From positions 558,001 to 622,000 of the forward strand of contig NZ_CANLGX010000002.1 in NCBI RefSeq assembly GCF_947490415.1: DNA of 64,000 nt, read 5' to 3'. Shown piece by piece: positions 22,808-41,126 of the stretch; position 1 is the first letter of the stretch, and each line of letters begins with the position of its first letter. The DNA is from an uncultured Eudoraea sp. Its GTDB lineage: Bacteria; Bacteroidota; Bacteroidia; Flavobacteriales; Flavobacteriaceae. The position numbers and the translations under genes were made by a program. The notes beneath the pieces are model-generated. The model was not told where the DNA came from. It saw only the letters and a list, made by a program, of their open reading frames with translations, and searched no databases.

Positions 22808-22821
22808 ATGACTTATGTCAT
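22808..22821 (+). promoter_or_regulatory. ATGAC-N4-GTCAT activator-like site of the SQR promoter
   Basis: ATGAC TTAT GTCAT is a perfect palindrome (extended by flanking T/A to 22807-22822). Its centre (22814.5) is 36.5 bp from the end of a -7 like element, TAATTTTA at 22844-22851, one mismatch from TAnnTTTG. There is no good -33 TTG, which fits activator dependence. The same arrangement recurs at 31231, 31486 and 38632. Confidence 0.65.
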
Positions 22822-22907
22822 ATTTTACAGTACATCCTATAATTAATTTTACATCATTAAAATACAGGTCAAAAAATCCCTGTAATTCATACTAAATAAG
22901 GTAAATA

Positions 22908-24155
22908 ATGATGAAAAATTTAGTGATATTAGGTGCAGGAACTTCCGGAACTATGATGGCCAATCATCTGGTATCCAGTCTGCCTAAAAAAGAGTGGAAG
23001 ATTTCCATAGTAGATCAATACAAAACCCATTATTACCAGCCCGGGTTCTTATTTCTTCCTTTTGATATTTATACTACAAAACAGGTTAAGAAAAAAGGAT
23101 CCAAGTTTTTACCTAAAGATGTTAACTATATCCAGGAAAAAATAGATCTTATTGAACCTGAAAATAATAAGGTATGCCTTGCAAATGGCAAGGAGCTATC
23201 TTATGATGTTTTAATTGTAGCCACGGGGACAAAAACCGTACCGGAAGAAATTGAAGGTATGAAAGGACCAAAATGGTATAAAAACATCTTTGATTTCTAT
23301 ACCTATGAAGGTGCCAAAGCATTAAGAGATAAATTTAGAACCTGGGAAGGCGGAAAACTGGTAGTTCATATAACGGAAATGCCTATAAAATGTCCGGTAG
23401 CCCCTTTGGAATTTGCATTTTTGGCAGATTCCTATTTCAAAAACAAGGGGATGAGGGATAAAGTAGATATTACCTTTGTAACACCGCTGGACGGCGCTTT
23501 TACTAAGCCAAGAGCTACGGAAGCCCTTCATTATTTGTTAGAAGAAAAAAATATTAAAGAAGTTACAAGTTTTAATATAGAGCGGGTTGATTACGAGAAT
23601 AATAAAATTATAGATTACGGGGATACTGAGGTGGAATACGACCTTTTGGTCACCGTTCCAACGAATATGGGCGATCCATTGCTAGAACGCTCCGGCCTTG
23701 GAGATGATCTTAATTACATTCCAACAAATAAAGCAACGTTGCAATCCATAGACCATGAGAATATATTTGCTATTGGTGATGCTACTAATATACCCGCTTC
23801 AAAAGCAGGTTCTGTGGCTCATTTTGAAGCTGAAATTCTGACGGAAAATATATTGCGATATATCAATAATGAAGAATTAAAAGAGGACTTTGATGGTCAT
23901 GCCAATTGTTTTATAGAAACCGGAGGCGGCAAGGCATTGTTGATTGATTTTAACTACACCACAGAACCGGTTGAAGGAACATTTCCCTTTCCTGGTGTAG
24001 GTCCATTAAGGCTTTTAAAAGAGAGCAGGATGAATCATATGGGCAAACTAGCTTTTCGCTGGATATATTGGAATATGCTATTAAAGGGTGTTCCTATTCC
24101 ATTTGTTGATGCTAAAATGTCTGAAAAGGGAAAACAATTAGAAAAAACTCAATAA
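22908..24155 (+). CDS. sqr: Sulfide:quinone oxidoreductase-type flavoprotein
   Basis: 415 residues. The N-terminal FAD motif is VILGAGTSGTMMANHL, with ATGTKTVPE at the second nucleotide segment and FAIGDATNIP at the third. The two redox cysteines expected in SQR are at Cys162 (PIKCPVAP) and Cys334 (HANCFIE), and a hydrophobic/aromatic C-terminal helix region would hold it on the membrane. It oxidises sulfide to sulfane sulfur or polysulfide and reduces quinone. It leads a three-gene operon with a TusE/DsrC-like protein and DsrE2, which would accept the sulfane sulfur. A start one codon later (second Met) is possible. Confidence 0.9.
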   Translation: MMKNLVILGAGTSGTMMANHLVSSLPKKEWKISIVDQYKTHYYQPGFLFLPFDIYTTKQVKKKGSKFLPKDVNYIQEKIDLIEPENNKVCLANGKELSYDVLIVATGTKTVPEEIEGMKGPKWYKNIFDFYTYEGAKALRDKFRTWEGGKLVVHITEMPIKCPVAPLEFAFLADSYFKNKGMRDKVDITFVTPLDGAFTKPRATEALHYLLEEKNIKEVTSFNIERVDYENNKIIDYGDTEVEYDLLVTVPTNMGDPLLERSGLGDDLNYIPTNKATLQSIDHENIFAIGDATNIPASKAGSVAHFEAEILTENILRYINNEELKEDFDGHANCFIETGGGKALLIDFNYTTEPVEGTFPFPGVGPLRLLKESRMNHMGKLAFRWIYWNMLLKGVPIPFVDAKMSEKGKQLEKTQ

Positions 24156-24176
24156 TATAACTTTAAATTAAATAAC

Positions 24177-24485
24177 ATGAAAAAAATTATAGCAGATCGG
24201 GAAATTGATGTAAACGAAGAAGGGTATCTAGTCGATTTTAATCAGTGGGATAAGGACGTTTGCGCTTATTTGGCAGAGGAACAGGGTATTTCCATGACAG
24301 AAAAGCATTGGGAAGTTGTAGAATACTTACAGGATAAGTTTCAAAAAGAAGAACCTTTATCAATCCGTGGTATTAAGAAGAGCGGTGTCATAAACATTAA
24401 AGAGTTCTACAGTTTATTTCCCGGAGGACCTCTTAAAAAGTCTACTTTGATAGCAGGGATTCCTAAACCAAAGAGTTGTATCTAA
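24177..24485 (+). CDS. TusE/DsrC family sulfur carrier protein
   Basis: 102 residues, ending AGIPKPKSCI as in the DsrC/TusE C-terminal arm. The penultimate Cys101 is the persulfide-carrying cysteine. The second arm cysteine of true DsrC, eleven residues upstream, is replaced by Thr90, so it should act like TusE as a single-cysteine carrier. There are no dsrAB genes here. Its place between SQR and DsrE2 suggests it receives sulfur from DsrE2 or SQR in the cytoplasm (inference). Confidence 0.9.
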   Translation: MKKIIADREIDVNEEGYLVDFNQWDKDVCAYLAEEQGISMTEKHWEVVEYLQDKFQKEEPLSIRGIKKSGVINIKEFYSLFPGGPLKKSTLIAGIPKPKSCI

Positions 24486-24535
24486 CGAATTAAAAGGTAA
24501 TCTAAGATTTTAATAAAATCATAAAAAAGATAGAG

Positions 24536-25060
24536 ATGAGCGAAACTAGCGTAAAAGAGAAGAGCGAAACTAAAGTAAAAGAAATGAGCAAAACCAAAGT
24601 AAAAAAGATGCTTTTTATTCTTTCCAAAGGCACCATTGAAAATGCATATGCAGCTTTTGTTATGGCGAACGGGGCACGGATGGAAGGTATTGAATCGGAA
24701 ATATTTTTTACATTTTTTGGACTGGAAGCAATTCAAAAGAAAAAATTGGAACACTTACGTGTTGCAACCGTAGGTAATCCGGCTTTACATATGCCAACAA
24801 TGCTTGGTGGACTGCCAGGTGTTGAAGCACTGGCCACGAAGATGATGAAGAAGGAAATGGAAAAATTAGATATGCCTCCCATTGGAGAGTTCCTTGAAAT
24901 TTTGTCAGACTCTGGTTGTAAACTATGGGGTTGTAAACTGGCCATAGACATGTTCCACCTGGAAAGAGAAGATTTAATTGATGAATTGGATGGGATATTA
25001 ACTATTGGTGATTTTTACGGCAGAGCTAATGAAGAAGGCACCCATTTATTATTTATATAA
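24536..25060 (+). CDS. DsrE2-type DsrE/DsrF family sulfurtransferase
   Basis: 174 residues. After a Lys/Glu/Thr-rich N-terminal extension (1-24) built of three 8-residue repeats, the DsrE fold begins at KKMLFILSKGTIENAYAAF. The conserved DsrE2 cysteine pair is Cys128 and Cys133 (GCKLWGC, CxxxxC). DsrE2 proteins take up persulfide sulfur and hand it to TusA or related carriers. It is the last gene of the SQR operon and is followed by a terminator. A start at the internal Met17 or Met25 would remove most of the repeats. Confidence 0.88.
   Translation: MSETSVKEKSETKVKEMSKTKVKKMLFILSKGTIENAYAAFVMANGARMEGIESEIFFTFFGLEAIQKKKLEHLRVATVGNPALHMPTMLGGLPGVEALATKMMKKEMEKLDMPPIGEFLEILSDSGCKLWGCKLAIDMFHLEREDLIDELDGILTIGDFYGRANEEGTHLLFI
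24538..24609 (+). repeat. Three 24-bp tandem repeats inside the DsrE2 gene
   Basis: Units 24538-24561, 24562-24585 and 24586-24609 are near identical, each starting GAGC(G/A)AAAC. They encode three charged octapeptides of the form S(E/K)T(S/K)VK(E/K)(K/M). The repeat length is a multiple of three, so copy-number change by slippage would keep the frame. Confidence 0.85.
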
Positions 25061-25108
25061 ATAAGCTGAGCTAGTCAAATAATATAAGTTCCATTGATAG
25101 ATTGTTTT

Positions 25109-25145
25109 AAACCCTGCTGAACTTATTTGGCAGGGTTTTCTTTTG
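25109..25145 (+). terminator. Terminator of the SQR operon
   Basis: A 9-bp stem AAACCCTGC/GCAGGGTTT (25109-25117 with 25130-25138) with a 12-nt loop runs into TTTTCTTTTG. It lies 49 bases after the DsrE2 stop. Confidence 0.85.
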
Positions 25146-25224
25146 TGAAATACTTAATTTAGTGTTTGATATTAAATTCAGACATGATTAACTTCATGTA
25201 ATAGCCCGGGTAAAGTGATACAAA

Positions 25225-25250
25225 AAAAGGCACCAATTATGGTGCCTTTT
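25225..25250 (-). terminator. Terminator of the DUF3604 gene
   Basis: A 10-bp perfect stem (25225-25234 with 25241-25250) and AATTAT loop, flanked by A and T tracts on both sides. It lies 17 bases beyond the minus-strand stop at 25267, and the minus-strand product ends in a run of T. It could also back up the plus-strand terminator. Confidence 0.85.
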
Positions 25251-25266
25251 ATAAATTCAATTCCTT

Positions 25267-27273
25267 CTAATTTGGTGTATACCAAATCGGACTGGTATAA
25301 GCACGCTCCTGCTGGCTTGTTGGAGCACCTTCAGGTATTTCTAACCCAAAACGGAAGGCATCATATAAATACCATGGTGGTGTTGGTATTTCCATTACTC
25401 TTACATAATAGAAGGCCCTCTCAGAGGGGTCAAAATCCGGGTCTGTCCAAACTGTAGCCAGTTCAGATGCCCCTATGGTATTGGTCCAGCTCGCCGTGGC
25501 AATGTCTACAGTATTACCCACTGCCGGCACCTTACCATCACGGCCTGGTTTTCGATCTCCGGACCAGACCACGTCATAGACTTTTTCATGGGTTTCACCA
25601 TCAGCGTCAAGCCATCCTTTAATGATTTGTATACGATCCAGATTGGCCCCAATGGCATCTCGTATAGCATAGACCATAAAATTCGGCGATTTGCCAGAAG
25701 GAGCATTTACCAGATCACCTCCCATAGGTACACCTTTGGCATAACCCGCGAAGGCTGGTTCCCGACTTTGTATGTCTTCTTCTGTATATTCCCATCCACC
25801 AAAGAAACGCACCATCATGCGTGGCCCGGTAGTGGCATAAACTTCTTTACGATGCATGGCATCCCAGATAGACTCCCTCGTATTTTCTTTTGCCCAAACT
25901 CCTGTAATCCCTGCCGCAAGTTGTGACCAGCCCAATATTTCCCCATTTTCATTTTTCATAAAGGGGTGTGTCATTCTTTCCGGTGAAGGTTCGTAACCGG
26001 TGTGTTTTCCAAAAAAATTATTTTCCTCGGATGTTGTCAATGAGGTATGGCTATCTGTAGCACCCTGCAATCCAAATTTATAAGGGTTTGTGCCAAATTT
26101 TTCCTCCAGGACCAGTCCATTTTTAAGAGCTTCACGGGTATACTCATACTGGAGCATATCATCTGTTTTTGCCTCGGAGAGATCCAAATTACCTATATCC
26201 CATTTATAGTAGTCCGCAAATTCATCATTTACCGAAAGGAAAGGATGCGTTTCGCCATCTCCTTTTATCTGGGTTACTTCATAAGTACGTTCCCATTTGG
26301 CACGCTGCTCTACATAAAATTTGTCGAGTTTTTTACCCGTATACTGTGCATCAATAGGAAACATAATACCATTGGAGAGGTTTCCATTATGAGCTAATGT
26401 CTGCACCTGTCCCCCGGTTTTTGCCACATAGTCTTCCAGATACTTATATAGATCAAGAGGATCAGTACTTCCAATTGGGGCCTGAGTAGTAAAAGGCACT
26501 ACTTGGCCTGCCTTTTCCGCCCCATCACGAAAAATCACGTTTCGATGCATGTTTCCACCTCTTACCAAAGAAGTCCATTCAAAACCAATAAATGCTGTAA
26601 AATGCCCTGGATCATTAAATTCCTCTGCCGCGGCAATTACATCTTCCCATATAGTTTCGTACCTTTTTGCACCGGGTGAATAATTCCCTAGAAGTTCAGG
26701 ATCTACTTCTCCCTGTGAAAAGGTAGTTATCAGGTTCAAAGTTGCCTCAACAGCCTCCTGACCTCCTGCATTAAAACCTTTAGACCAGCGTTCGCCCTGT
26801 TCATATTTCATCACAAATGGCTCTGCCGCTAAAAGATCTGTAATGAATCCCAAACCATCTGAATGATCTGCTATAACCAGCCAATCTAATGGCCTGGCCA
26901 ATCTGGCCTGCTGGCCAGAAGAAGCAGTTACTTCTTCACCTCTGGCAAATCGATAGGCATCACGTACACCCAACCGGTTTCCAAATCCACCGGCATCCAT
27001 GGATAGTCCTGTATGCAAATGGGTTTCTCCAAATAAGGGTAAGGTTGCAAATTCGCGTTTAGCATATGGTGAGTATGTTTCACCGGTATATTTGGTAGAA
27101 AGTATTCGGCGCAAATCTTCATCAGAATTGGTAGTTTCACCCACCTTTAAAGGTTCCTGTGAGCCAATCACGGTCTGAGATTCTGTCTTGGATTCATCTG
27201 TTTTATTTTCGGTACAGGAAAAAGTAAGTGCAAACGAAAGTATCAGGATCAATAATACGGATAGAGATTTCAT
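25267..27273 (-). CDS. DUF3604 lipoprotein
   Basis: 668 residues with lipobox TFSC (Cys20). The DUF3604 signature is clear: [20 protein letters not shown] with PHP-like His residues, [27 protein letters not shown] and a C-terminal [18 protein letters not shown]. The PHP-like His/Asp set suggests a metal-dependent hydrolase outside the cytoplasm, but no reaction is established for the family as far as I know. It is divergent from the PpiC-HupE genes. That trio recurs in marine bacteria, from general knowledge. Confidence 0.9.
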
Positions 27274-27639
27274 AAATTATATTTTAGTTAAAGATAATCA
27301 ATTTACAAAATTTTTAAGTCTCAGTAATCTGATCTTTTTGTTAAGTCAAGATACCTATAGATCTACCATGGAAATCGCCCTTTAATTCTTCACCTAAAAA
27401 CCTCTTTTTTATGGGTATTCATATCAAGAAATTAAAAGTTGTTCCTGATTGATAATCTATGTGTCAATTAAATGAAATACCTATATTTAAATATTATTTA
27501 AAATATGTTTGGCCTTAAGGTTTATCTAAAACATATGACTTAAGCAGGTATTGACTTAACTGCGCTGAGTTTTATAAAGAGTGATTTGTATTGTGCATTT
27601 TATCATTAATCTTATAGGAAGAAAATAAACTAAAGTATT
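27274..27639. other. Divergent intergenic region between DUF3604 and PpiC genes
   Basis: 366 bases, very AT-rich, no convincing gene. It contains one ATGAC half-site near 27536 (in ATATGACTTAAG) without a matching GTCAT arm, so I do not count it as a regulon site. No stable hairpin or clear -7/-33 pair was found. Confidence 0.5.
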
Positions 27640-28551
27640 ATGAAATCGTTTATTAAGCAGCCCTTGGTTCATTTCCTTTTAATCGGACTTGGATTTTTTA
27701 TAATCTTTAATTTTTTTGGCTCTGGAGATGAATTGGATTCCAAAACCATTGTTGTTGATAAGGAATCTTTGATGACTTATTTTCAATACCGTTCCAAAGC
27801 ATTTAACACCCAGGTCTTTGAGGATAAACTGGCTTCAATGACAAAAGAAGAACAAAAAAATCTTATTAAAGAATACGTAAGGGAGGAAGTCCTATATCGG
27901 GAAGCCATGGCTATGGGACTCGACAGGGAAGATTATATTATTAAAAGGAGAATGATCCAAAAAGTAGAATTTATTTCACAGGGAATAGCAGAGGCAGTTA
28001 CCGATATGACTGATGAGCATATTAAAACATATTATGAAGAAAACAAGGAAGACTATTATATTGAGCCTATAGTTACTTTCACCCATGTTTTCTTTGATTC
28101 TCAGAAATGGTCACCAATGGAAGCCAAGAAAAAGGCCGAGGCCGAGGTACAGTATTTAAACAGTCATAATATTACATTCAGCGAGGCACCCGGCAGAGGA
28201 GACCGGTTTTTTTATCATACCAACTATGTAGAACGAAACCTGGAATATGTGGAAAACCATTTTGGGTCAACAATGGCTAAGAGCATTTTCGAATCTACTT
28301 CTTCCGATAAAAAATGGCTCGGCCCATTTCAATCTCAATACGGCTTTCATATAGTGATGCTTACAAAAAATGAACCGGGCAGATACCCTGACCTGGATGA
28401 TGTAACAGACAGGGTAATAGATGATGCCAGAAGGGAATATACGCGTAAGAGAAGCGATGAAAACATTCAAGGAATTATTGATGAATATGAAGTAAAACTT
28501 GCATATGATCTCCATTCAAAGGCTGAAACAAAGCTTAATGATAAAGATTAA
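27640..28551 (+). CDS. Membrane-anchored PpiC-type peptidyl-prolyl isomerase
   Basis: 303 residues. A single hydrophobic anchor (about 10-28) is followed by a SurA/PrsA-like helical N-domain and a parvulin-type domain from about 145 to 255 (TFTHVFFDSQKW... WLGPFQSQYGFHIVML). It should assist folding of proteins outside the cytoplasm. It is followed 49 bases later by HupE/UreJ and is divergent from DUF3604, so its client may be one of these partners (inference). Confidence 0.88.
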   Translation: MKSFIKQPLVHFLLIGLGFFIIFNFFGSGDELDSKTIVVDKESLMTYFQYRSKAFNTQVFEDKLASMTKEEQKNLIKEYVREEVLYREAMAMGLDREDYIIKRRMIQKVEFISQGIAEAVTDMTDEHIKTYYEENKEDYYIEPIVTFTHVFFDSQKWSPMEAKKKAEAEVQYLNSHNITFSEAPGRGDRFFYHTNYVERNLEYVENHFGSTMAKSIFESTSSDKKWLGPFQSQYGFHIVMLTKNEPGRYPDLDDVTDRVIDDARREYTRKRSDENIQGIIDEYEVKLAYDLHSKAETKLNDKD

Positions 28552-28600
28552 TTCTAATCTGGTGAACTAAATTTAAGACCTAAAATTCTTTAGATTGAAG

Positions 28601-29623: not shown

Positions 29624-29735
29624 TGTATAATTTCATAAATTCCATCCCAAAATAGTTCTCTGACATTGCAGAATAAAGGTAATCATGATAATATTTTAAT
29701 AAATCATTTCTCTAAAAGCCAAATCATATTCATAA

Positions 29736-29767
29736 AAAACGGCGCCAAATATGGCGCCGTTTTCATT
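29736..29767. terminator. Bidirectional terminator between HupE and the FadL-like gene
   Basis: An 11-bp GC-rich perfect stem (29736-29746 with 29753-29763) with a 6-nt AAATAT loop and A/T tracts on both sides lies between convergent genes ending at 29623 and 29791. It is 24 bases from the minus-strand stop. Confidence 0.9.
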
Positions 29768-29790
29768 TAAGACTATTCTTCGTTATTGAA

Positions 29791-31104
29791 CTAGTTTTTA
29801 AGGAATTTATAACTCGCTCCAACCATTATCATGGAAGTTGTCATATCATAAGAAACTTCACTGCCAGGAATTGCTCCATAAGGAGGGAAGCTAGATATAA
29901 ACTGAGGGTTTAACAATGGCCCAGAAGTGGCTTTTCCACTAAAGCCCATATGGTAAACACCGTCGATAGCCCAACGGTCGCTTATTTCATAACTCAAACC
30001 TAATTGGAATGCGTTTTTGATGATGGCTGTTGCGGGTACGTTAAAGAACGCTACATCACTGCCAATTGGATTGGAACTATAGGTATACCCAAGTCTTAAG
30101 GGTAATCTGTCAACACCTTTGTATTGAATACCAGCTGAAACAATACTAATGTTATCCCAGCCAAAACCTGCAACAGAGGCGGTTGGTGTCCAGCCTACAG
30201 ATGAAAAACCTGCTGTCTTATCATATTGAACATACCTGTAATCTAAAGCCAGATCAAATTGGCCAGGAGAAAAACCGAGGCCTAAGGACCAGATAGCCGG
30301 GTAATCCATTTTGAATTCATTTTCACCGGTACTTGAATCCAGATAGGTGTTATCAAATTTAAAATCTCCAAATGATTGCTTGGTTTTATAAGAAGCTCCT
30401 GCAGAGAATCCTGCCCCGGAATCATAATATACTCCCAATTGTCCTCCGAAACCTAGTGCTGTTGCCTTGTCGGCTGAAGGATAACCAGCTAGTGTAGGAT
30501 TTGCGGTAGGGTTGGGCATTAATTCAAGAGTTGCATAATTAAAAGTGGGTTGAAGTCCTATTGAGAATTTATCTGATAATTGATAGGCATAAGTAAAACC
30601 TAATTGCAGTAAACTATAATCAGATTCTATTCGGCCAAATCCTCCCATGCTTTGAGGCATATTAATAGGGTTGGTAGTACTTTCAGGAAATGTAACCCCA
30701 AATCCGCTGATACCAAAAGCGGAAGCACCAAAAGTGTGCTTGCTACCTTCTTTTCCCCAAACCATTGCTAAAGCTGGTAAAGGTGAAACCCCCCTGTCGT
30801 CTTCAGTTGTGCCGCTAAAAAAGTTCCCCGTTGGATTACCACCGCTGTCAAATTCTGGGACAGTAGAACTCAGTTCAGGTGAGGAGAAGAATAGACCAAG
30901 GTCAAACTTTATGATCTTCTCATCAAATGTGGAAATAGAAGCAGGGTTCCATTGTATTGCACCTGAAATATCCAAAGGCTGACCAGTTGAGGCACCACCC
31001 ATTGACATATTTACAGCGCCCACACCCTGCATGATATGGCCTGCTTGTGAATATGCAGCAGTTGCAAATAATAGAAAACAAAGTTTTAAAAAATATGCTT
31101 TCAT
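29791..31104 (-). CDS. OmpP1/FadL/TodX family outer-membrane transport protein
   Basis: About 437 residues from the ATG at 31104. The longer frame to 31224 lacks a signal, whereas this start gives MKAYFLKLCFLLFATAAYS followed by the family-typical QAGHIMQGVGAVNMSMGGAS. The rest is beta-barrel with repeated aromatic/Gly strands and a C-terminal ASYKFLKN. FadL-type proteins admit hydrophobic compounds through the outer membrane. Its promoter region has an ATGAT-N4-GTCAT palindrome at the same spacing as the sulfur genes, so it may belong to that regulon and admit a sulfur compound or quinone-like molecule (inference). Confidence 0.88.
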   Translation of the reverse strand: MKAYFLKLCFLLFATAAYSQAGHIMQGVGAVNMSMGGASTGQPLDISGAIQWNPASISTFDEKIIKFDLGLFFSSPELSSTVPEFDSGGNPTGNFFSGTTEDDRGVSPLPALAMVWGKEGSKHTFGASAFGISGFGVTFPESTTNPINMPQSMGGFGRIESDYSLLQLGFTYAYQLSDKFSIGLQPTFNYATLELMPNPTANPTLAGYPSADKATALGFGGQLGVYYDSGAGFSAGASYKTKQSFGDFKFDNTYLDSSTGENEFKMDYPAIWSLGLGFSPGQFDLALDYRYVQYDKTAGFSSVGWTPTASVAGFGWDNISIVSAGIQYKGVDRLPLRLGYTYSSNPIGSDVAFFNVPATAIIKNAFQLGLSYEISDRWAIDGVYHMGFSGKATSGPLLNPQFISSFPPYGAIPGSEVSYDMTTSMIMVGASYKFLKN

Positions 31105-31230
31105 GTTTAAGTAATTTGTGCAACTAAAAACAAATCCTAACCGCTTCAATTCAGGGTTAATTATTATTGATAATTGCTGGTTAATAACTGAATTATAGTG
31201 CGAAGTTAAATTCAAGATATTCAATTAATT

Positions 31231-31244
31231 ATGACAATTATCAT
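31231..31244 (-). promoter_or_regulatory. ATGAT-N4-GTCAT site (minus strand) of the FadL-like gene
   Basis: On the minus strand it reads ATGAT AATT GTCAT. Its centre is 36.5 bp from the end of TAACTTCG (31208 down to 31201 on the minus strand), one mismatch from TAnnTTTG. The gene starts at 31104. Confidence 0.55.
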
Positions 31245-31383: not shown

Positions 31384-31397
31384 GTAACTCATGTTAC
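31384..31397. promoter_or_regulatory. GTAAC-N4-GTTAC palindrome, distal
   Basis: GTAAC TCAT GTTAC, perfect. It does not stand at the fixed spacing from a -7 element on either strand, so it may be a distal or cooperative site between the two divergent promoters. Confidence 0.55.
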
Positions 31398-31485: not shown

Positions 31486-31499
31486 ATGATAAAAGTCAT
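31486..31499 (+). promoter_or_regulatory. ATGAT-N4-GTCAT site, upstream promoter of PDO-rhodanese
   Basis: ATGAT AAAA GTCAT. Its centre (31492.5) is 36.5 bp from the end of GAGCTTTG (31522-31529), one mismatch from TAnnTTTG. The next palindrome starts on the last base of that element. Confidence 0.55.
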
Positions 31500-31528
31500 T
31501 CTTTTTTAGTTCGTAAAAAGTGAGCTTT

Positions 31529-31572
31529 GTAACCTAAGTTACTGTAAAAGTGCCGATTGCTTAATACTTTTA
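31529..31572 (+). promoter_or_regulatory. GTAAC-N4-GTTAC site and -7 element, proximal promoter of PDO-rhodanese
   Basis: GTAAC CTAA GTTAC at 31529-31542, centre 31535.5. TACTTTTA, one mismatch from TAnnTTTG, ends at 31572, again 36.5 bp from the centre. The start codon at 31597 follows 25 bases later. Confidence 0.65.
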
Positions 31573-31596: not shown

Positions 31597-33012
31597 ATGA
31601 ATATAGAACAGATTTATACGGGATGTTTAGCCCATGCAGCTTATTATTTGGAGAGTAAAGGTGAAGCCGCAATATTTGATCCATTAAGGGAAGTTGAGCC
31701 CTATATTGCAAGGGCCAAGAAAGATAATGCAACAATAAAGTATGTTTTTGAAACACATTTTCATGCAGATTTTGTTAGTGGTCATTTAGATCTAAAGAAA
31801 AAAACCGGTGCGGAAATTGTATTTGGTCCAACCGCTAAACCTGGATACGAAGCTACTGTTGCAAAGGATAATCAGATTTTTAAAGTTGGGGATTATCAGG
31901 TTAAAGTAATTCACACTCCAGGTCATACAATGGAGAGTACTACTTATTTGTTACTAGACGAGAATGGAAAGGAACATGGTCTAATAACCGGTGATACATT
32001 ATTTATTGGAGATGTGGGCAGACCAGATCTTGCCCAACATGTAATTTCTGAACTTACTGAGGAAAAATTGGCCGGATATTTATTTGATTCACTTCGTAAT
32101 AAAATCATGCCGTTAGATGATAATTTGATTGTTTACCCCAATCATGGTGCAGGTTCCGCTTGCGGAAAAATGATGAGTAAGGAAACGACAGACACTCTGG
32201 GGCATCAGAAAAAAGTAAATTATGCGCTAAGGCCGAATATGACCAAAGACGAATTTATAAAAGAACTGCTTACTGGTTTAACAGCACCTCCGGGATATTT
32301 CCCGCAGAATGTCTTGATGAATATTAAGGGGTATGAGAGTCTGGACACCATCAAAGAAAGGGGGGAAAGGCCTTTATCACCGGCTGCTTTTGAAGTAGCT
32401 GCGAATGAAACGAATGCGCTAATGTTGGACACGCGCAAGCCTGAAGATTTTGCAAAAGGGCATATTCCCAATAGTATAAATATTGGTCTTGATGGCAATT
32501 TCGCCCAATGGGTTGGAGAAATGATACCAGACGTAAAACAGGATATTTTGCTAATAACCTATCCGAATAAAGAAGAAGAAGCTATTACCAGACTTTCAAG
32601 AGTAGGTTATGACCATGCAATTGGTTTCTTAGATGGTGGATTTGATGCCTGGCAAAAGGAGAAGAGGCAAGTTGAAAGAATTAATAGAATTACGGCAAGT
32701 CAGTTTGAAAAGGCATATTTTGGGGAAGGACCACTTGTTTTTGATATAAGGAAAAAAAGTGAATTTGATTCTGAACATGTTATTGGAGCGATTAATATTC
32801 CTTTAAATGAATTAAATCAGCATCTTTCACAATTTCCAAAAGATAAACCCTTTGTGCTGTACTGTGAAGGAGGTTACAGAAGTATGATCGCTGCATCTAT
32901 CTTAATGCAGAGAGGTTGGGAAGATTTCGTTGATGTCTCGGATGGTTTTGATGAAATCAAAAAAACAAAGGTTGAAAAATCGGATTATATATGTCCGACT
33001 ACCATGTTGTAG
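31597..33012 (+). CDS. Persulfide-dioxygenase-type MBL-fold protein fused to two rhodanese domains
   Basis: 471 residues. Residues 1-245 are a metallo-beta-lactamase domain with ETHFHADFVSGH (His54, His56, Asp58), HTPGHT (His110) and TGDTLF (Asp133), the pattern of ETHE1/CstB-like persulfide dioxygenases. The first rhodanese domain (about 265-355) has no cysteine at the active loop (ITYPNKEEE). The second (about 365-455) has Cys423 in YCEGGYRS. It would oxidise glutathione- or low-molecular-weight persulfide to sulfite and/or transfer the sulfane sulfur. It heads a four-gene sulfur operon and complements the SQR. Confidence 0.9.
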   Translation: MNIEQIYTGCLAHAAYYLESKGEAAIFDPLREVEPYIARAKKDNATIKYVFETHFHADFVSGHLDLKKKTGAEIVFGPTAKPGYEATVAKDNQIFKVGDYQVKVIHTPGHTMESTTYLLLDENGKEHGLITGDTLFIGDVGRPDLAQHVISELTEEKLAGYLFDSLRNKIMPLDDNLIVYPNHGAGSACGKMMSKETTDTLGHQKKVNYALRPNMTKDEFIKELLTGLTAPPGYFPQNVLMNIKGYESLDTIKERGERPLSPAAFEVAANETNALMLDTRKPEDFAKGHIPNSINIGLDGNFAQWVGEMIPDVKQDILLITYPNKEEEAITRLSRVGYDHAIGFLDGGFDAWQKEKRQVERINRITASQFEKAYFGEGPLVFDIRKKSEFDSEHVIGAINIPLNELNQHLSQFPKDKPFVLYCEGGYRSMIAASILMQRGWEDFVDVSDGFDEIKKTKVEKSDYICPTTML

Positions 33013-33110
33013 AAATTTGTTTTGGTTGATTGTTACGGGAATGGCCAGATTAATTTTTGGTTGTTCCCTTTCCTGCCGAAATTTTATTAATTATTTATAG
33101 AGAAATAGCA

Positions 33111-33455: not shown

Positions 33456-33492
33456 TGATCTAGATATTCATACAAACAAAATAATATAAATT

Positions 33493-33762
33493 ATGAAGGC
33501 CTCAGTAATAGTTCAAAACCTCAAATGTGGTGGTTGTGCAAAAACCATCACTAGTAAATTATCAGAAATGGACCGTCTTTCAGACATTGATGTGGATACA
33601 GAAACGGCCACAGTTCATTTTACCTATGAAAATATTGATGATGCCATTTTAGTCAAGGATAAACTAAAAGAACTTGGATATCCTTCCATTGAGTATAGAA
33701 ATAGTACATCCGCTAAAGCACGCTCATTTTTGAGTTGTGCAAGTGGGAAAATGTCGAAATAA
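33493..33762 (+). CDS. Heavy-metal-associated (HMA) domain protein
   Basis: 89 residues. The HMA ferredoxin-like fold carries the metal-binding pair in CGGC (Cys12, Cys15), and a C-terminal tail has one more Cys (FLSCASGK). It probably binds Cu(I) or a similar soft metal. Its stop overlaps the start of the diheme lipoprotein (TAATG), so the two are translationally coupled. A metal chaperone beside persulfide enzymes would help where reactive sulfur and copper interact (inference). Confidence 0.88.
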   Translation: MKASVIVQNLKCGGCAKTITSKLSEMDRLSDIDVDTETATVHFTYENIDDAILVKDKLKELGYPSIEYRNSTSAKARSFLSCASGKMSK

Positions 33763-34817: not shown

Positions 34818-34829
34818 ATGAAATTTTCC

Positions 34830-35711: not shown

Positions 35712-35723
35712 AATTATTTAGTT

Positions 35724-36665
35724 TTATAATATTATACTATCTTTTTCATAAGGTAATTCGTCAAAATAACTCCATTCCACCCAGGATCCATCATAGTTCC
35801 AGACATTTTCAAATCCCATCAATTCTCTTAATACAAAGGTAGTCAAAGATGATCTGTAACCAGTATGACAATAAACAATAATCGTATCTTTTAAACCCAT
35901 TTCCAAACCCTTGTAAATCTTTTGCAATTCCTCAATGGACCTGAACTTTTTACTGCCCTCGAGATCAACCGAATCTGCCCAATCTATGTGGATACTTTTT
36001 GGAATTCTTCCTCCTTTTGAGGCTCCTTTTTTTATATGGATTCCTTTGTATTCTTCAGAACTACGGGTATCAATAAGAATAACATTTTTACTATCATCGC
36101 TTATTAAATCCATTAGTTCGTCTTTATCAATCCACAAATTTTTACTACTTTTTTCAGGAAGATAAAATTGGGTAGGGTTATATGAGAAGGGATCTGTTGT
36201 AAGTTTTCCACCCACACTTTCCCAGCTCTTTAATCCACCATTTAATATCTTCACCGAATCAAAATCATAGTTTTTTAATAAACACCATAAACGCATAGCA
36301 TCAGGTGAGCCCTTATCATCATAGACCACAATAAGATCATTATTATCAATTCCTAATTCGCCGAAAAGAAGTTCAATATTTTTCTTACCGGCTCGCATTC
36401 CTATATATGGAAATGAACTATCAGAAACATCTGTTCGCCATATATTTAAAGAACCATAAATATGTCCTGTCTTATAATCCTCAGGATTTCTGAAATCAAC
36501 TATTTTTATATTTTCGTCGTTCAAAATTTTTATTAATTCTTTTGCTTCAATAAGATGTTCCGTGGAAGCATAATTTGTAATGACAAGGTTTTGTTTTTCA
36601 TTGATTCCCTTGCAGGATAGTAGCAAAATAAACAAAACCGCATATATACTAATCTTTGAGCTCAT
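35724..36665 (-). CDS. Tandem rhodanese sulfurtransferase lipoprotein
   Basis: About 313 residues from the ATG at 36665. This start gives a clean lipoprotein signal (LFILLLSC, Cys18); an upstream ATG at 36692 is possible. Two rhodanese domains are present. The N-terminal one lacks the Cys (VVYDDKGSPDA), while the C-terminal one has Cys266 in YCHTGYRSS. The layout is that of thiosulfate or mercaptopyruvate sulfurtransferases, but exported. The start lies inside the last codons of the cytochrome gene (17-base overlap). It may act on thiosulfate in the periplasm and release sulfite for the neighbouring dehydrogenase (inference). Confidence 0.87.
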   Translation of the reverse strand: MSSKISIYAVLFILLLSCKGINEKQNLVITNYASTEHLIEAKELIKILNDENIKIVDFRNPEDYKTGHIYGSLNIWRTDVSDSSFPYIGMRAGKKNIELLFGELGIDNNDLIVVYDDKGSPDAMRLWCLLKNYDFDSVKILNGGLKSWESVGGKLTTDPFSYNPTQFYLPEKSSKNLWIDKDELMDLISDDSKNVILIDTRSSEEYKGIHIKKGASKGGRIPKSIHIDWADSVDLEGSKKFRSIEELQKIYKGLEMGLKDTIIVYCHTGYRSSLTTFVLRELMGFENVWNYDGSWVEWSYFDELPYEKDSIIL

Positions 36666-37128
36666 ACCATTCAATATCTGACAATACTTCACGTCTTCCT
36701 TTTTTCTGAGGCGGGTAATTAGTCACCAGATAGTTTACAATTATTGCTTCATTATTTCCCAAATCCCATAAATTTTGTGTTTCCTGCATCCACCTGATGG
36801 TCGCAATCCAGCGTTCCTCATTCATTCTATTTTGGGTGACTAGTTTTGCAGAATGGCAATTTGTACAATTATTCACCACTGTCATTAAGCCATCAGCTTC
36901 TATAAGACCGGTTCTGACATGTATGCCATTTTCAATCTTGTCAAAATCATCTGATTCCTGGATAGAAACATATTCCGGCTCAACTTCTGTTGCCTTTTTC
37001 CTGGTCCAATCAGGGTTAGATAACAAAAACAGGATTCCGATTGCAGCTACAATGAATAAGCCGAATAAGCCCGCCATAAGTCTATAGATGGCTTTTACTT
37101 GTTGTTTGAACTTAGAGTGCTCCTGCAT
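36649..37128 (-). CDS. Membrane-anchored monoheme cytochrome c of the sulfite dehydrogenase
   Basis: 159 residues. An N-terminal helix (about 15-37) anchors a small domain with one CTNCH heme site (Cys88-His92) and a likely axial Met at M114 in RWMQ. It starts on the base next to the sulfite dehydrogenase stop, as in SorA-SorB type pairs. It should take electrons from the molybdenum subunit and pass them to the respiratory chain. Confidence 0.88.
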   Translation of the reverse strand: MQEHSKFKQQVKAIYRLMAGLFGLFIVAAIGILFLLSNPDWTRKKATEVEPEYVSIQESDDFDKIENGIHVRTGLIEADGLMTVVNNCTNCHSAKLVTQNRMNEERWIATIRWMQETQNLWDLGNNEAIIVNYLVTNYPPQKKGRREVLSDIEWYELKD

Positions 37129-38349
37129 TTATGTAACCTTTACTGCAATTCTATGGCATGCGTTATTAAGGTAACCCTTTGGATTCCAGCCTGGTAATAG
37201 CATGGGTTGACTTATACCGTTGGAATCCGTGGCCCGAGCCCAAACTTCATAATAACCTTCTTTTGGAAAGTCTATTGAAGCATTAAAATGTTGCCACGCC
37301 AATCTGTTTGCCGGTTTTTCTATTGGACAGGGCTGCCAGGTGGAACCAAAATCTATGGAATATTCCATTTTTACTACTTCAAGCTCTCCGGCCCAGGCAT
37401 GTCCCCGGATGTCCAGTTTTTTACCTTTATTAATCATAGCCCCCGATTTCGGATAGGTTATTAATGATTTTACAGGCATAGATTCAATAATGCACATATC
37501 CTCTTCTTTAACCTTTTCGCCCGGAGCTACAGGATTACAAGGCACCCTATACGCATCGCCGGTCATTTTGGTGCCATCATGTACCTTATTTCGAATACTT
37601 ATTCTATTTACCCATTTCCCGGAAACTGAAGCCGGCCAGCCCCCGGCAATCAGCCTTAAAGGGTAACCATGGGCTAAAGGAATGTCCTCGTTGTTCATTT
37701 TAAAAGCCAGTAAGGTTTCCTCCTGCAGAGCCTTTATCATCGGGGCGCCACGGGAAATTGGCTCTTTCCCCGGATCCCTGCTTAAATGTAAATCCGCAGC
37801 GTGATATCCAATGTAAACTGCGTCATCTTTTATTCCAACATCTTCCAAAACATCTTTTAGCCTTATTCCGGTCCAGGTAGCACAGGAAACCGCCCCAATT
37901 GTCCATTGATTTCCTTTTGCGGGCGGGTCAAATTCACTTCGGCCATTACCGCCACATTCCAGGGTTAATTGGTAGGTATACTGCGGAAATTTTGATTTTA
38001 ACTCTGCCAGGGTATAGGTTTTCTCTTGCCTTACGGACTCTCCATCGAATGTTAAGGTCCAACTGTTAGCATCTATGTTTTCCGGGATTAATCCATTGTT
38101 TCGAATAAACATAAACTTGTTAGGCGTTATTTTATCATCCAAAAGGTGAGCCTTTGCTTCAATATTCCAGGGTTTGTCGTTTAGCACGACCATCCCTTTA
38201 TCCTTGTCAAACATTTTGAAGGGGTCGGGGTCCTGGAAGGCTAGTGGTTTGTAGCCTTCGGGCATAACCGAACCAAATACAATATCCGCTCCTATTACAG
38301 AGGCCATGGTGCCTATAGTCGCCTTTTTAACAAAGTTTCGTCTTTTCAT
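37129..38349 (-). CDS. Sulfite dehydrogenase, molybdopterin subunit (sulfite oxidase family)
   Basis: 406 residues. The N-terminus MKRRNFVKKATIG is a Tat-type signal, so the enzyme is periplasmic. The Moco domain has ECGGNGRSEF and the molybdenum-ligand Cys156 in VSCATWTGIRL, and later HGYPLRLI. The C-terminal half (about 275-405) is the Ig-like dimerisation domain. It oxidises sulfite to sulfate. It has no heme domain of its own and is followed by a cytochrome c gene. The promoter has a GTAAC-N4-GTTAC site. Confidence 0.92.
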   Translation of the reverse strand: MKRRNFVKKATIGTMASVIGADIVFGSVMPEGYKPLAFQDPDPFKMFDKDKGMVVLNDKPWNIEAKAHLLDDKITPNKFMFIRNNGLIPENIDANSWTLTFDGESVRQEKTYTLAELKSKFPQYTYQLTLECGGNGRSEFDPPAKGNQWTIGAVSCATWTGIRLKDVLEDVGIKDDAVYIGYHAADLHLSRDPGKEPISRGAPMIKALQEETLLAFKMNNEDIPLAHGYPLRLIAGGWPASVSGKWVNRISIRNKVHDGTKMTGDAYRVPCNPVAPGEKVKEEDMCIIESMPVKSLITYPKSGAMINKGKKLDIRGHAWAGELEVVKMEYSIDFGSTWQPCPIEKPANRLAWQHFNASIDFPKEGYYEVWARATDSNGISQPMLLPGWNPKGYLNNACHRIAVKVT

Positions 38350-38372
38350 TATTCAGTTTATTTCTAAAGATT

Positions 38373-38417
38373 CTAAATTAAGAATTTATTTAATAACGTA
38401 AGTGTAACAAATGTTAC
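38373..38417 (-). promoter_or_regulatory. GTAAC-N4-GTTAC site and -7 like element of the sulfite dehydrogenase promoter
   Basis: The palindrome GTAAC AAAT GTTAC is at 38404-38417. On the minus strand a TAATTTAG element (38380-38373), one mismatch from TAnnTTTG, ends 37.5 bp from the palindrome centre and 24 bases before the start codon at 38349. Confidence 0.55.
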
Positions 38418-38589
38418 TATACTTCAAATATTAGTAAAATATATTTAAGGAATCATGTAATTTTTGAGGAAAATAGGAGCATGGTTAATGCACATAAAGA
38501 ACTCGAATCTTTTTAAAATAAGATATATGGAATCCGTAAATATCCGAAATTTGATACTTCCTAAATTTTATAGAAAAATTTTTCTGAAT
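38418..38589. other. Central part of the divergent region, nothing further seen
   Basis: AT-rich stretch between the two divergent promoters of the sulfite dehydrogenase and the DUF6799 gene. It contains no open frame of note, no hairpin and no further copy of the palindromes. Confidence 0.5.
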
Positions 38590-38603
38590 GTAACATATGT
38601 TGC
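38590..38603. promoter_or_regulatory. GTAAC-N4-GTTGC palindrome, one mismatch
   Basis: GTAAC ATAT GTTGC, a one-base variant of the family. It lies 42 bp (centre to centre, about four helical turns) upstream of the ATGAC-N4-GTCAT site at 38632. Confidence 0.5.
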
Positions 38604-38631
38604 ACAAAACCCCTGTATTTATTAAGGTTGC

Positions 38632-38675
38632 ATGACTATGGTCATTGCCCTGGTTGTTTTAGTCTTATAAGTTTG
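38632..38675 (+). promoter_or_regulatory. ATGAC-N4-GTCAT site with a full promoter of the DUF6799 gene
   Basis: The palindrome ATGAC TATG GTCAT is at 38632-38645 and overlaps an ATTG -33 element (38644-38647). After 20 bases follows a perfect TAnnTTTG -7 element, TAAGTTTG at 38668-38675. Palindrome centre to -7 end is 36.5 bp. This is the clearest promoter in the window. Confidence 0.7.
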
Positions 38676-38708
38676 TAACATTATTTATTAATATTAAATC
38701 TCAATACC

Positions 38709-39386
38709 ATGAAAAGAAATTTAGTTTTATTGGCGCTTATAGTTTTAGGATCTATGGCGCTCACGGCCCAGGAAAGAGATCAGGATAGAATTCAGGATCA
38801 AGACCGTACCAAATTGGTTATGGTTAATGGCGAAATGTTAGAATTAAGAGATAGGGCAGAAATGCGCCTTAAAGATAGACAGACCTTAGCAGACGGATCT
38901 GTGGTGTCTCCAGACGGCACCTATGAAACCGCGGATGGTGACCGCCTGAAACTGAAAAATGGGGAATGTTTAGATGGTGATGGTATCAAATATCGGAATG
39001 AATATCAATACCGCTATAAAGTAGGTCAGGAGAATAAAGGTTTAACCCAGGATCAAATTCGGGAACGAAATCAAAATAGAGTCCAATATACTTTGGTTGA
39101 CGGAGATATGTATGTGGTAAGAAATCAGACGCAGCAACGTTTACAAGAAAGTCTGGACCTTGGAAATGGAGTTGTAGTGAACCCTGATGGAAGTTTTCAA
39201 ACAAGAGATCAAAAAAGATTACAACTGAAGGATGGAGAATGCCTGAATGCTGATGGTCAAATGTTTAGTAATATGTATCAGTATCGAAAAATGATCATCC
39301 AAAAAAATATGGCCCCTCAAAAAAAGATGATAAAAAAAGGTGTAAATAAGCCTACTGCGAAAAAGAAAAAAATAAGCAAAAAATAA
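38709..39386 (+). CDS. Secreted protein with two DUF6799-like repeats
   Basis: 225 residues. A signal peptide ends about at LTAQ, followed by a charged segment rich in DQDR. Two similar repeats of about 70 residues follow (roughly 35-103 and 115-185). Each has the pattern 'LVxGxMxxxRxxxxxRLxxxxxLxxGxVVxPDGxxxTxDxxRLxLKxGECLxxDG'. The C-terminus is Lys-rich. DUF6799 has no known function; it is a periplasmic domain of Bacteroidetes. The strong promoter with the ATGAC site links it to the sulfur genes. Confidence 0.8.
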   Translation: MKRNLVLLALIVLGSMALTAQERDQDRIQDQDRTKLVMVNGEMLELRDRAEMRLKDRQTLADGSVVSPDGTYETADGDRLKLKNGECLDGDGIKYRNEYQYRYKVGQENKGLTQDQIRERNQNRVQYTLVDGDMYVVRNQTQQRLQESLDLGNGVVVNPDGSFQTRDQKRLQLKDGECLNADGQMFSNMYQYRKMIIQKNMAPQKKMIKKGVNKPTAKKKKISKK

Positions 39387-39395
39387 ACATTATAG

Positions 39396-39429
39396 AGGGC
39401 TCCTGTTCAATTCGGGGGCCCTTTATTTA
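39396..39429 (+). terminator. Terminator after the DUF6799 gene
   Basis: A 10-bp stem (39396-39405 with 39413-39422, two G-U pairs) is followed by TTATTT. It lies 10 bases after the stop and just before the next gene's start at 39442. Confidence 0.65.
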
Positions 39430-39441
39430 AAGTAATCCAAA

Positions 39442-40332
39442 ATGAAGATTCGACTTATTTTGAATTTTTTTTTATTTTCAATTATCCCTATAGTTCTTAT
39501 AGGGCAAGACCCTGTTAAAACCACTAATGATATTGTTAATGAGGATTTTTCCTATTTTTTGGCAGATGTTAGTTATGTTAATGATTATGTTTTTATGGGC
39601 AGGCGCGATTCTATTGCCGCCCCTTATCTGTTCCCTTCTCTGGGGTATTATAATAAATCAGGCTTTTTCGCTGATGCGTCCTTATCCTTCCTTACAGGAT
39701 CTCAAGCCAGTGGGGTTGACCTTATTTTATTCAGTGCGGGTTACATCTTCAATTCAAACAACTTTAGCGGCGGTATTTCAGGGACGGCTTACTTTTTCAA
39801 TGCGGAAAGTAACAATGTGATGTCATCAGTAACCGGCAGTCTGACAGGTATTGTAGGCTATGATTTCGGGATGCTGGAAACCACACTCTCTTTAAGTAGT
39901 TATTTCAATGATGGCAGTTCCACAGATTTTATTACCGGGTTGATGATCAACCGTATTTTTTACACTAAGAATAAAAATCTAATGATTAACCCCAGTATTT
40001 CTTTGTATGCCGGAACACAATATTTTTATCAGCAGTACTATAATAGCAGTCGCCTGGGAAACAGAAAAGGCAAAGGCATGGCTAATACAGGTTCCGGAAC
40101 GGTAGATTCCAATATGATTAATATTGAACAAGTTCAAAAATTTAATGTTCTGAATATGGAGATAGAGATTCCATTACATTACAATTTCAAACATTTTATC
40201 TTTTCATTCTACCCCATGATGGCATTCCCTCAAAGCAGCGCTACTATAATCAATGAAGATACTATAGTGACAGAAGATCTTAAGCCGGTTTTCTATTGGT
40301 CAGCCGGGATAAGTTACTGGTTTAAATCCTAA
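39442..40332 (+). CDS. Putative outer-membrane beta-barrel protein
   Basis: 296 residues. A signal peptide (MKIRLILNFFLFSIIPIVLI) is followed by alternating aromatic/hydrophobic strands, with an N-terminal 'DVSYVNDYVFMGRRDS' and a C-terminal 'AGISYWFKS' ending on an aromatic-rich strand, as in Bacteroidetes outer-membrane proteins. I do not recognise a family. It sits between the DUF6799 gene and upp, and could be read through the terminator before it. Function unknown. Confidence 0.65.
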   Translation: MKIRLILNFFLFSIIPIVLIGQDPVKTTNDIVNEDFSYFLADVSYVNDYVFMGRRDSIAAPYLFPSLGYYNKSGFFADASLSFLTGSQASGVDLILFSAGYIFNSNNFSGGISGTAYFFNAESNNVMSSVTGSLTGIVGYDFGMLETTLSLSSYFNDGSSTDFITGLMINRIFYTKNKNLMINPSISLYAGTQYFYQQYYNSSRLGNRKGKGMANTGSGTVDSNMINIEQVQKFNVLNMEIEIPLHYNFKHFIFSFYPMMAFPQSSATIINEDTIVTEDLKPVFYWSAGISYWFKS

Positions 40333-40364
40333 AAAATGTATCTTTAAGGTAAATCATAAAATGA

Positions 40365-41018
40365 ATGATCATTCATAATTTTGGAGCTGAAAACTCCTTG
40401 CTAAATCAATTCGTCGCAGAACTTAGGGATATAAAAATTCAAAAGGATTCCATGCGTTTTCGAAGGAATATTGAACGGATTGGTGAAATCCTTTGTTATG
40501 AATTAAGCAAAACTCTAAATTATAAGGTAAGTACAGTTCAAACACCCTTTGGCCATAAAGCCATGGCATTGCCATTAGACAACCTGGTTTTGTGTTCTGT
40601 TTTAAGGGCGGGTTTGCCCTTACATCGTGGACTTTTGAATTATTTTGACAAAGCTGAGAACGCTTTTATTTCTGCCTACAGGCATCATCCGGCAGGAGGC
40701 AACGAATTTGATGTAATCGTTAAATATTTTGCTGCTCCGGCTTTGGGGGGTAAAACACTCATATTAACAGACCCTATGCTGGCAACCGGTAAGACTCTAG
40801 AGAATGTATTAAATGCCTTAAAAAACCATGGTCAACCTAAACAGATACATATTATTTCTGTTATTGGTTCTAAAGTAGGGATAGAATATGTGAAAAGTGT
40901 TTTCCCGGATAATACGCACTTGTGGATTGCTACTATTGATGATGAATTGACCGCCAAAGGATATATCATTCCCGGATTGGGCGATGCCGGGGATCTTGCT
41001 TACGGAACCAAACTTTAA
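40365..41018 (+). CDS. upp: Uracil phosphoribosyltransferase
   Basis: 217 residues. The PRPP-binding loop LILTDPMLATGKTL and the uracil-site region near IPGLGDAGDLAYG at the C-terminus are clear. It converts uracil and PRPP to UMP in the pyrimidine salvage pathway, in the cytoplasm. The first residues (MIIHNF) start at the ATG at 40365; an in-frame alternative close by is not needed. It seems unrelated to its sulfur and efflux neighbours. Confidence 0.95.
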   Translation: MIIHNFGAENSLLNQFVAELRDIKIQKDSMRFRRNIERIGEILCYELSKTLNYKVSTVQTPFGHKAMALPLDNLVLCSVLRAGLPLHRGLLNYFDKAENAFISAYRHHPAGGNEFDVIVKYFAAPALGGKTLILTDPMLATGKTLENVLNALKNHGQPKQIHIISVIGSKVGIEYVKSVFPDNTHLWIATIDDELTAKGYIIPGLGDAGDLAYGTKL

Positions 41019-41059
41019 TTTCTTTTTAATCATCTCAGGATAATCTGCTTGCATACTCT

Positions 41060-41126
41060 GTAACATAAGTTACCATATTTCAGTAACATAGGTTACCGTT
41101 TGCACTTTCTTCTAAGCTTAATTTTG
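41060..41126 (+). promoter_or_regulatory. Tandem GTAAC-N4-GTTAC sites with a perfect -7 element of the RND efflux operon
   Basis: GTAAC ATAA GTTAC (41060-41073) and GTAAC ATAG GTTAC (41083-41096) lie 23 bp apart, about two helical turns. A perfect TAnnTTTG element, TAATTTTG (41119-41126), ends 36.5 bp from the centre of the second site. A TTTG at 41099-41102 may serve as -33. The TolC gene starts at 41142. Confidence 0.7.

Follow-up and report, generated by a model that had tools for sequence, protein, structure and literature searches.

Palindromes at a Fixed Distance from the -7 Box Suggest Crp/Fnr-Type Activation of Sulfur Genes in an Uncultured Eudoraea

Introduction

A stretch of 64,000 nucleotides from an uncultured Eudoraea sp. 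of the family Flavobacteriaceae (contig NZ_CANLGX010000002.1, positions 558,001 to 622,000; in the following, the window) carries genes for a sulfide:quinone reductase (SQR) with DsrC/DsrE2-like proteins, an MBL-fold/rhodanese fusion protein (MBL-rhodanese), a SorA-like sulfite dehydrogenase, a FadL-like porin and a DUF6799 protein, as well as a TolC-HlyD-RND operon. Two palindromic words, GTAACN4GTTAC and ATGAYN4RTCAT (GTAAC and ATGAY sites), recur upstream of these genes, and an original prediction had placed them at a fixed distance from a Bacteroidota -7 element. Is this spacing real, what kind of promoter does it mark, and which proteins would read the two words? Our analysis indicates that the palindromes are very probably the sites of two kinds of class II activators of the Crp/Fnr type, whose binding, activating role, signals and associated transcription starts we infer from sequence features.

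Results and Discussion

The Spacing Between Palindromes and -7 Elements

Spacing was measured from the palindrome centre to the last base of the TAnnTTTG-like -7 element for the 11 palindromes of the window, namely six exact GTAAC sites, one with a single mismatch and four ATGAY sites. On rereading of the sequence, the distance of 36.5 bp claimed for six pairs (22808, 31231 on the minus strand, 31486, 31529, 38632 and 41083) was found again, as were the 37.5 bp claimed for the minus-strand promoter of the 38404 site and the mismatch counts, TAAGTTTG and TAATTTTG being perfect matches to TAnnTTTG and the other elements deviating at one position. The notion of a fixed spacing holds for these six pairs and fails for the upstream sites at 22781, 31384, 38590 and 41060, which have no element at 36.5 bp. 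One pair had escaped the original prediction: read on the plus strand, the 38404 site has TATATTTA at 36.5 bp. This element (38440-38447, plus strand) precedes the next annotated gene, which starts at 38709, by ~260 bp and possibly belongs to a second promoter or to that of a small RNA.

An element matching at least five of the six defined positions occurs at 36.5 bp in 7 of the 22 oriented placements (11 palindromes in both orientations). The comparison with random intergenic positions that the original prediction had named as potentially fatal was made with 20,000 random sets of 11 such positions, each scored at the best of 91 offsets (10.5 to 100.5); at most 5 elements were obtained at any single offset. 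Counting perfect elements alone makes a weaker case, with 2 at 36.5 bp and a probability of 0.008 that any offset reaches at least 2.

The spacing recurs outside the window. The Eudoraea genome (3.89 Mb, 18 contigs) contains 72 ATGAY sites versus 13 for the reversed control; we examined 51 of the 72, including 47 from outside the window. In the 94 oriented placements of the latter, elements matching at least five of six positions were found 31 times at 36.5 bp, against a mean of 0.91 and a maximum of 4 at other offsets, and perfect elements 6 times, against a mean of 0.06 and a maximum of 2. Shifted ATGAY spacings were tested in this genome only. At three loci (L010, L012 and L014, each at position 1501), lone ATGAY palindromes have -7-like elements at 36.5 bp on both strands, and such a single site may serve two divergent promoters.

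For the GTAAC word, we turned to the loci around orthologues of a Crp/Fnr gene at C2:170340-170972 of the same genome (the 80 best-matching among at least 589 orthologues listed from public genome records), which is discussed below. The 147 unique GTAAC sites of these regulator loci, that is 294 oriented placements, gave 73 perfect TAnnTTTG elements at 36.5 bp, 7 at 35.5, 1 at 37.5 and a mean of 0.17 at the remaining offsets; with one mismatch allowed, 128 were found at 36.5 bp versus a mean of 3.4. When all placements were aligned without selection for a -7 element, information content peaked at 33.5, 34.5, 30.5 and 29.5, all within the -7 box, followed by 7.5 (palindrome flank), 35.5 (-7 box) and 9.5 (flank). 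The 130 placements selected for an element at 36.5 bp yield the logo TGTAAC-N4-GTTAC with an A-rich start region.

It might be argued that AT-rich intergenic DNA yields -7-like elements everywhere and that the spacing merely reflects composition. One-mismatch elements do occur at other offsets in the 294 placements (3.4 per offset, up to 16 at offset 11.5), and the probability of 0.008 for perfect elements in the window is not extreme, but neither random intergenic positions nor other offsets reproduce the peak at 36.5 bp, and we regard this explanation as practically negligible. The shared spacing of 36.5 bp is real and far beyond chance.

Position of the Sites Relative to the Promoter

In Flavobacterium psychrophilum, mapped transcription starts have been reported to place the sigma-A box TAnnTTTG at -12 to -5 (PMC9723704), which, combined with a spacing of 36.5 bp, puts the palindrome centres at -41.5. 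The original prediction of sites near -41, the position of class II activators, is supported in this form for predicted starts, as the spacing recurs in the rest of the genome, in the 80 flavobacterial loci and in 24 of the 28 SQR promoters described below. Bacteroidota sigma-A promoters combine the TAnnTTTG -7 box with a TTTG -33 box. The former is present here, as evident from the 73 perfect elements and the unselected information peak. The latter is absent from the GTAAC promoters: at -36/-35, where T-T would be needed, the GTAAC palindrome has A-C (fixed by the exact search), and in the 130 aligned GTAAC promoters the sole enriched part of the -33 region is T (0.55) and G (0.57) at -34/-33. 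Displacement of the -33 box by the GTAAC palindrome would fit a dependence on activation, in line with the earlier suggestion that these promoters are weak on their own.

A protein bound at -48 to -35 could also hinder the polymerase, so that the sites might instead be repressor operators overlapping the promoter and relieved by sulfur or oxygen signals. Crp/Fnr proteins can act in this way, HcpR having been predicted to be a repressor at sat and apsAB (PMC545781), and in the window the -7 element of one promoter overlaps, by its final base, the GTAAC site at 31529 that belongs to the next. Yet a repressor has no need of single-base spacing, whereas 73 perfect elements lie at 36.5 bp and 7 plus 1 at the neighbouring offsets, and the exclusion of the TTTG box from its usual place by the GTAAC palindrome again fits activator dependence. 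Repression is thus unlikely in our view, and class II activation remains the preferred interpretation.

A Candidate Regulator for the GTAAC Word

Five genes for proteins resembling cyclic nucleotide-binding regulators are present in the Eudoraea genome, one of which, the Crp/Fnr gene at C2:170340-170972, clusters with genes for a SulP transporter and a second MBL-rhodanese protein. Around its orthologues, GTAAC ranks first among all 1024 half-sites, with 149 matches in 66 of the 80 loci; the runner-up, TTTTT, has 64, and the 59 other words of GTAAC composition have a mean of 1.5 and a maximum of 8. GTAAC sites are also denser where the regulator occurs (at least 44% identity; 61 genomes) than where it does not (19 genomes), at 1.92 versus 0.75 per Mb (p 1e-6). 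The GTAAC binder is best assigned to this regulator because its word is the commonest half-site around the orthologues and because the targets are mostly sulfur genes.

Downstream of 145 oriented sites that have a -7 box, the relatives carry genes for MBL-rhodanese proteins (37), a TauE-type exporter cluster (31), rhodaneses (15), TolC (9), cytochromes (8), SulP (7), a YeeE-type sulfur transporter cluster (7) and smaller groups, the TauE- and YeeE-type clusters being named from one member each; behind 14 of the 145, no open reading frame (ORF) of 80 amino acids was in reach. In the regulator loci, a GTAAC site lies upstream of 37 of 64 MBL-rhodanese homologues and 9 of 9 TolC homologues, compared with 54 of 920 ORFs that are 150 amino acids or longer and match no query gene, a group that still includes TauE and other likely targets. 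The TolC-HlyD-RND efflux operon (window 41060-46799) thus seems to be conserved as part of the sulfur regulon, and its substrate may be a sulfur compound.

The regulator has the barrel and the Crp-type helix-turn-helix of the Crp/Fnr superfamily, and its structural model shows a Crp fold, but it scores far below the cut-offs of the curated Crp equivalog (48.7 bits, cut-off 266) and NtcA (40.8 bits, cut-off 244.95) models. Its recognition helix, TSRVVVSRLL, has Val where Crp has Glu-181. This Val was found in 23 of 23, 49 of 49 and 80 of 80 regulator sequences, the latter two sets having been partly picked by a pattern that contains it. S181, R182, V183, V184, S186 and R187 are invariant in aligned orthologues, and the protein is predicted to read 5-bp half-sites separated by a 4-bp gap. 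All 49 aligned sequences have Cys77 and Cys83, and at least 90% of them also have Cys84; the Cys-x5-Cys pair was seen in all 80 regulator loci (79 by pattern, L149 by reading). The pair lies in the part that binds cAMP in Crp, and from the gene content one might guess that the regulator is a persulfide sensor.

Two more Crp-family genes lie ~10 kb or less to the left of the window (L026 at C2:548.8 kb and L028 at C2:556.8 kb). They were considered as GTAAC binders; their key recognition pairs are R-A and R-E, respectively.

The ATGAY Word and Fnr-Like Regulators

The composite ATGAYN4RTCAT-N22-TAnnTTTR has 528 matches in 80 genomes of the family versus 7 for the reversed pattern. Two Fnr-like proteins are candidates for its recognition, the L024 type (C6:144 kb) and the L025 type, a receiver-Crp fusion (C4:478 kb). 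Presence of the former was defined by E <= 1e-30 (52 genomes); the latter was counted as present in 33 genomes, since of the 34 listed G002 matched with its receiver part alone and was excluded. The median number of composites is 5 in the 33 genomes with the L024 type only, 4 in the 14 with the L025 type only and 13 in the 19 with both, and 13 of 14 genomes without either have 0-1. Most likely, one or both of these regulators bind the ATGAY word, as judged from their co-occurrence. We also attempted to assign the word to a single regulator by plain site density, which proved too weak for the purpose; the composite separates genomes better. Further ATGAY targets in the Eudoraea genome include genes for a 2-oxoacid:ferredoxin oxidoreductase, a universal stress protein (encoded next to the receiver-Crp fusion) and FtsH-like and Lon-like proteases, a set wider than sulfur metabolism.

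Two Predicted Inputs at SQR Promoters and Proposed Mechanism

SQR genes were found at E <= 1e-100 in 28 of 199 genomes of the family, our own included. Allowing at most one mismatch in the site and asking for a -7 element matching at least five of six positions, we found an ATGAY site with its element at exactly 36.5 bp in 24 of the 28 promoters. A GTAAC site, sought within 320 bp upstream and likewise with at most one mismatch, was present in 20 and lay upstream of the ATGAY site in 17. The distance between the two is 26-27 bp in 11 of these tandem promoters and 22, 22, 32, 34, 38 and 42 bp in the other six, a mixture that rules out a single helical phase; the regulator loci contain too few closely spaced sites for an analysis of phasing. 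The L247 promoter has the GTAAC site itself at 36.5 bp instead, L230 has both words at this distance from different elements, and L240, L242 and L250 have neither.

According to the mechanism that we favor, an activator dimer at -41.5 would overlap the place of the -33 box and contact RNA polymerase anchored at TAnnTTTG, the -7 box recognized by the housekeeping sigma factor of Bacteroidota. The GTAAC site would be read by the C2:170340-170972 protein, with an Arg-Val pair in place of the Arg-Glu pair of the Crp recognition helix; this protein would control genes for the handling of sulfide, thiosulfate and sulfite and probably senses sulfur species via its conserved cysteines. The ATGAY site would be read by the Fnr-like regulator at C6:144 kb, the receiver-Crp fusion at C4:478 kb, or both. 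Both inputs would converge on most SQR promoters, where the Fnr-like site is centred at -41.5 and the sulfur site, in most cases, at ~-68, presumably reporting low oxygen via the Fnr-like proteins and sulfur via the GTAAC regulator. Whether Flavobacteriaceae and some related families indeed possess a dedicated sulfur-sensing Crp-fold activator with Cys77/Cys83 of its effector loop as persulfide sensor, and whether the SQR promoter is a two-input gate shared with an Fnr-like regulator (low oxygen at -41.5, sulfur at ~-68), seems to us evenly balanced.

A number of findings weigh against these interpretations. Four of the 11 window sites are off 36.5 bp, each of them upstream of another site. 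The Eudoraea genome contains 8 exact GTAAC sites, and the reversed control also gives 8; six of them cluster in ~18 kb of the sulfur locus, and only this clustering is striking. As for the other two, the site at C2:173773, ~50 bp before the second MBL-rhodanese gene, has a perfect element (TATTTTTG) at 35.5 instead of 36.5 bp, and that at C1:213565 lies inside an ORF (L001, 1468-2595) and lacks an element. Exact GTAAC sites are absent from 14 of the 80 regulator loci. These loci come from related genomes, and p-values overstate their independence; moreover, GTAAC density is also raised in genomes that carry the receiver-Crp gene (p 3e-4), which deprives the density correlation, taken by itself, of specificity. 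Confidence in the structural model is lowest at the cysteine loop, with a mean predicted local distance difference test (pLDDT) score of 60-63. Concerning the ATGAY word, neither Fnr-like regulator was found in G048 (82% complete), which nevertheless has 18 composites, whereas G020 and G026 (L024 type) and G022 (L025 type) have none; plain ATGAY density does not distinguish genomes by the L025 type (p 0.64) and does so only weakly by the L024 type (p 0.014). Finally, 4 of the 28 SQR promoters lack an ATGAY site at 36.5 bp.

Features of the Window

The sites, elements and genes are collected in Table 1. The window SQR scores 649.8 bits with the NCBIfam model of the selenoprotein subtype of type III SQR, above its cut-off of 525, yet its gene reads through without a stop. 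The window MBL-rhodanese protein resembles persulfide dioxygenases, with scores below the curated cut-offs. Upstream of its gene (31486-31572), the last base of the -7 box of an ATGAY promoter is also the first of a GTAAC site, giving two staggered predicted promoters, P1 and P2, that use both words; the two regulators may exclude each other here. The SorA-like sulfite dehydrogenase is below its curated cut-off as well, and its operon partners are a weak SorB-like protein and a two-domain rhodanese.

Table 1. Palindromic sites, -7 elements and selected genes of the window; promoter positions and transcription starts are predictions.
Feature	Coordinates	Strand	Remarks
GTAACN4GTTAC site	22781..22794		Centre 27 bp upstream of that of the ATGAC site; predicted -68.5 of SQR promoter
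ATGACN4GTCAT site	22808..22821		Predicted -41.5 of SQR promoter
-7 element TAATTTTA	22844..22851	+	Ends 36.5 bp from centre; predicted start ~22856
Type III SQR gene	22908..24155	+	Followed by DsrC-like (24177) and DsrE2-like (24536) genes
-7 element TAACTTCG	31201..31208	-	For FadL-like porin gene (29791-31104 minus)
ATGACN4ATCAT site	31231..31244		Predicted -41.5 of FadL-like gene
GTAACN4GTTAC site	31384..31397		Upstream site; no -7 element at 36.5
ATGATN4GTCAT site	31486..31499		Predicted distal promoter P1 of MBL-rhodanese gene
-7 element GAGCTTTG of P1	31522..31529	+	Weakest case; last base is first base of next palindrome
GTAACN4GTTAC site	31529..31542		Predicted -41.5 of proximal promoter P2
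-7 element TACTTTTA of P2	31565..31572	+	Predicted start ~31577; start codon 31597
MBL-fold/rhodanese fusion gene	31597..33012	+	Followed by rhodanese, HMA-domain and cytochrome c genes
-7 element TAATTTAG	38373..38380	-	At 37.5; sulfite dehydrogenase operon; predicted start ~38368; start codon 38349
GTAACN4GTTAC site	38404..38417		SorA-like operon (35724-38349 minus)
GTAACN4GTTGC site, one mismatch	38590..38603		Centre 42 bp upstream of that of next site
ATGACN4GTCAT site	38632..38645		Predicted -41.5 of DUF6799 gene (38709)
-7 element TAAGTTTG	38668..38675	+	Perfect
GTAACN4GTTAC site	41060..41073		23 bp upstream of next site; predicted -64.5
GTAACN4GTTAC site	41083..41096		Predicted -41.5 of TolC-HlyD-RND operon
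-7 element TAATTTTG	41119..41126	+	Perfect; operon 41142-46799

Relation to Known Systems

A search for the unit GTAACN4GTTAC-N22-TAnnTTTG detected it in 9 of 15 genomes of the same family, 0 of 2 of the same order and 4 of 20 others of the same class; among 111 genomes from other classes of the phylum, none had it. Class II promoters and Crp/Fnr proteins have long been known, and so has the GTAAC word, from HcpR2. As far as limited literature searches show, a GTAAC sulfur regulon in Flavobacteriaceae, a candidate regulator for it where hcp is lacking, the 22-base ruler to the -7 box of Bacteroidota and the tandem arrangement at SQR promoters are new; among the titles and abstract openings listed, none described such a regulator, and an earlier description may exist. 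A palindrome followed by 22 bases and TAnnTTTG may serve as a ruler to predict activated promoters in Bacteroidota, and the findings indicate that the geometry of class II promoters is retained although the core promoter differs greatly. They also point to a candidate regulator, and to its targets, in the detoxification and oxidation of sulfide by marine heterotrophs.

In E. coli class II Crp/Fnr promoters, the dimer site is centred at -41.5 and replaces the upstream promoter box. The predicted promoters share this site position and the Crp fold of the GTAAC regulator, but their core box is TAnnTTTG at -12 to -5 rather than a -10 hexamer. NtcA, the second-best solved relative of the GTAAC regulator by profile, shares the Arg-Val pair (STRVTVTRLL). 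It recognizes half-sites GTA...TAC and is the regulator of cyanobacterial nitrogen control, with 2-oxoglutarate as its signal.

The closest match of the DNA word is HcpR2, whose motif GTAACnnnnGTTAC was published in 2005 (PMC1274295). The GTAAC site could accordingly be that of an HcpR2-type nitric oxide regulator, the sulfur genes being part of a nitrosative stress response: the word is identical, both proteins belong to the Crp/Fnr family, and both have replaced Glu-181. According to the same paper, HcpR2 has Pro-181 in most genomes, three species having Ser or Gln instead, and changes of residue 181 go together with changes of the half-site (PMC1274295). The regulator described here, in contrast, has Val-181 in all sequences compared and is associated with sulfur oxidation genes, and its genome has no match to PF03063 (hybrid cluster protein), whereas hcp is the core target of HcpR2. 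Around 25 hcp loci, neither a Crp-like neighbour within ~1.5 kb (blastp E <= 0.01 with our five own Crp-family queries) nor a GTAAC site was detected. With the word shared but hcp and Pro-181 missing, membership in HcpR2 was rejected, and a nitric oxide response is, in our estimation, quite improbable, even more so than repression. A sulfur regulator, as we prefer to see it, would have functional counterparts in SoxR and sHdrR, which have been described as sulfane-sulfur responsive ArsR-type repressors of sulfur oxidation genes (PMC10451225, PMC12423496): control of sulfur oxidation by a sulfur signal would be alike, but those proteins are repressors of another fold, while the protein proposed here is a candidate activator with a Crp fold.

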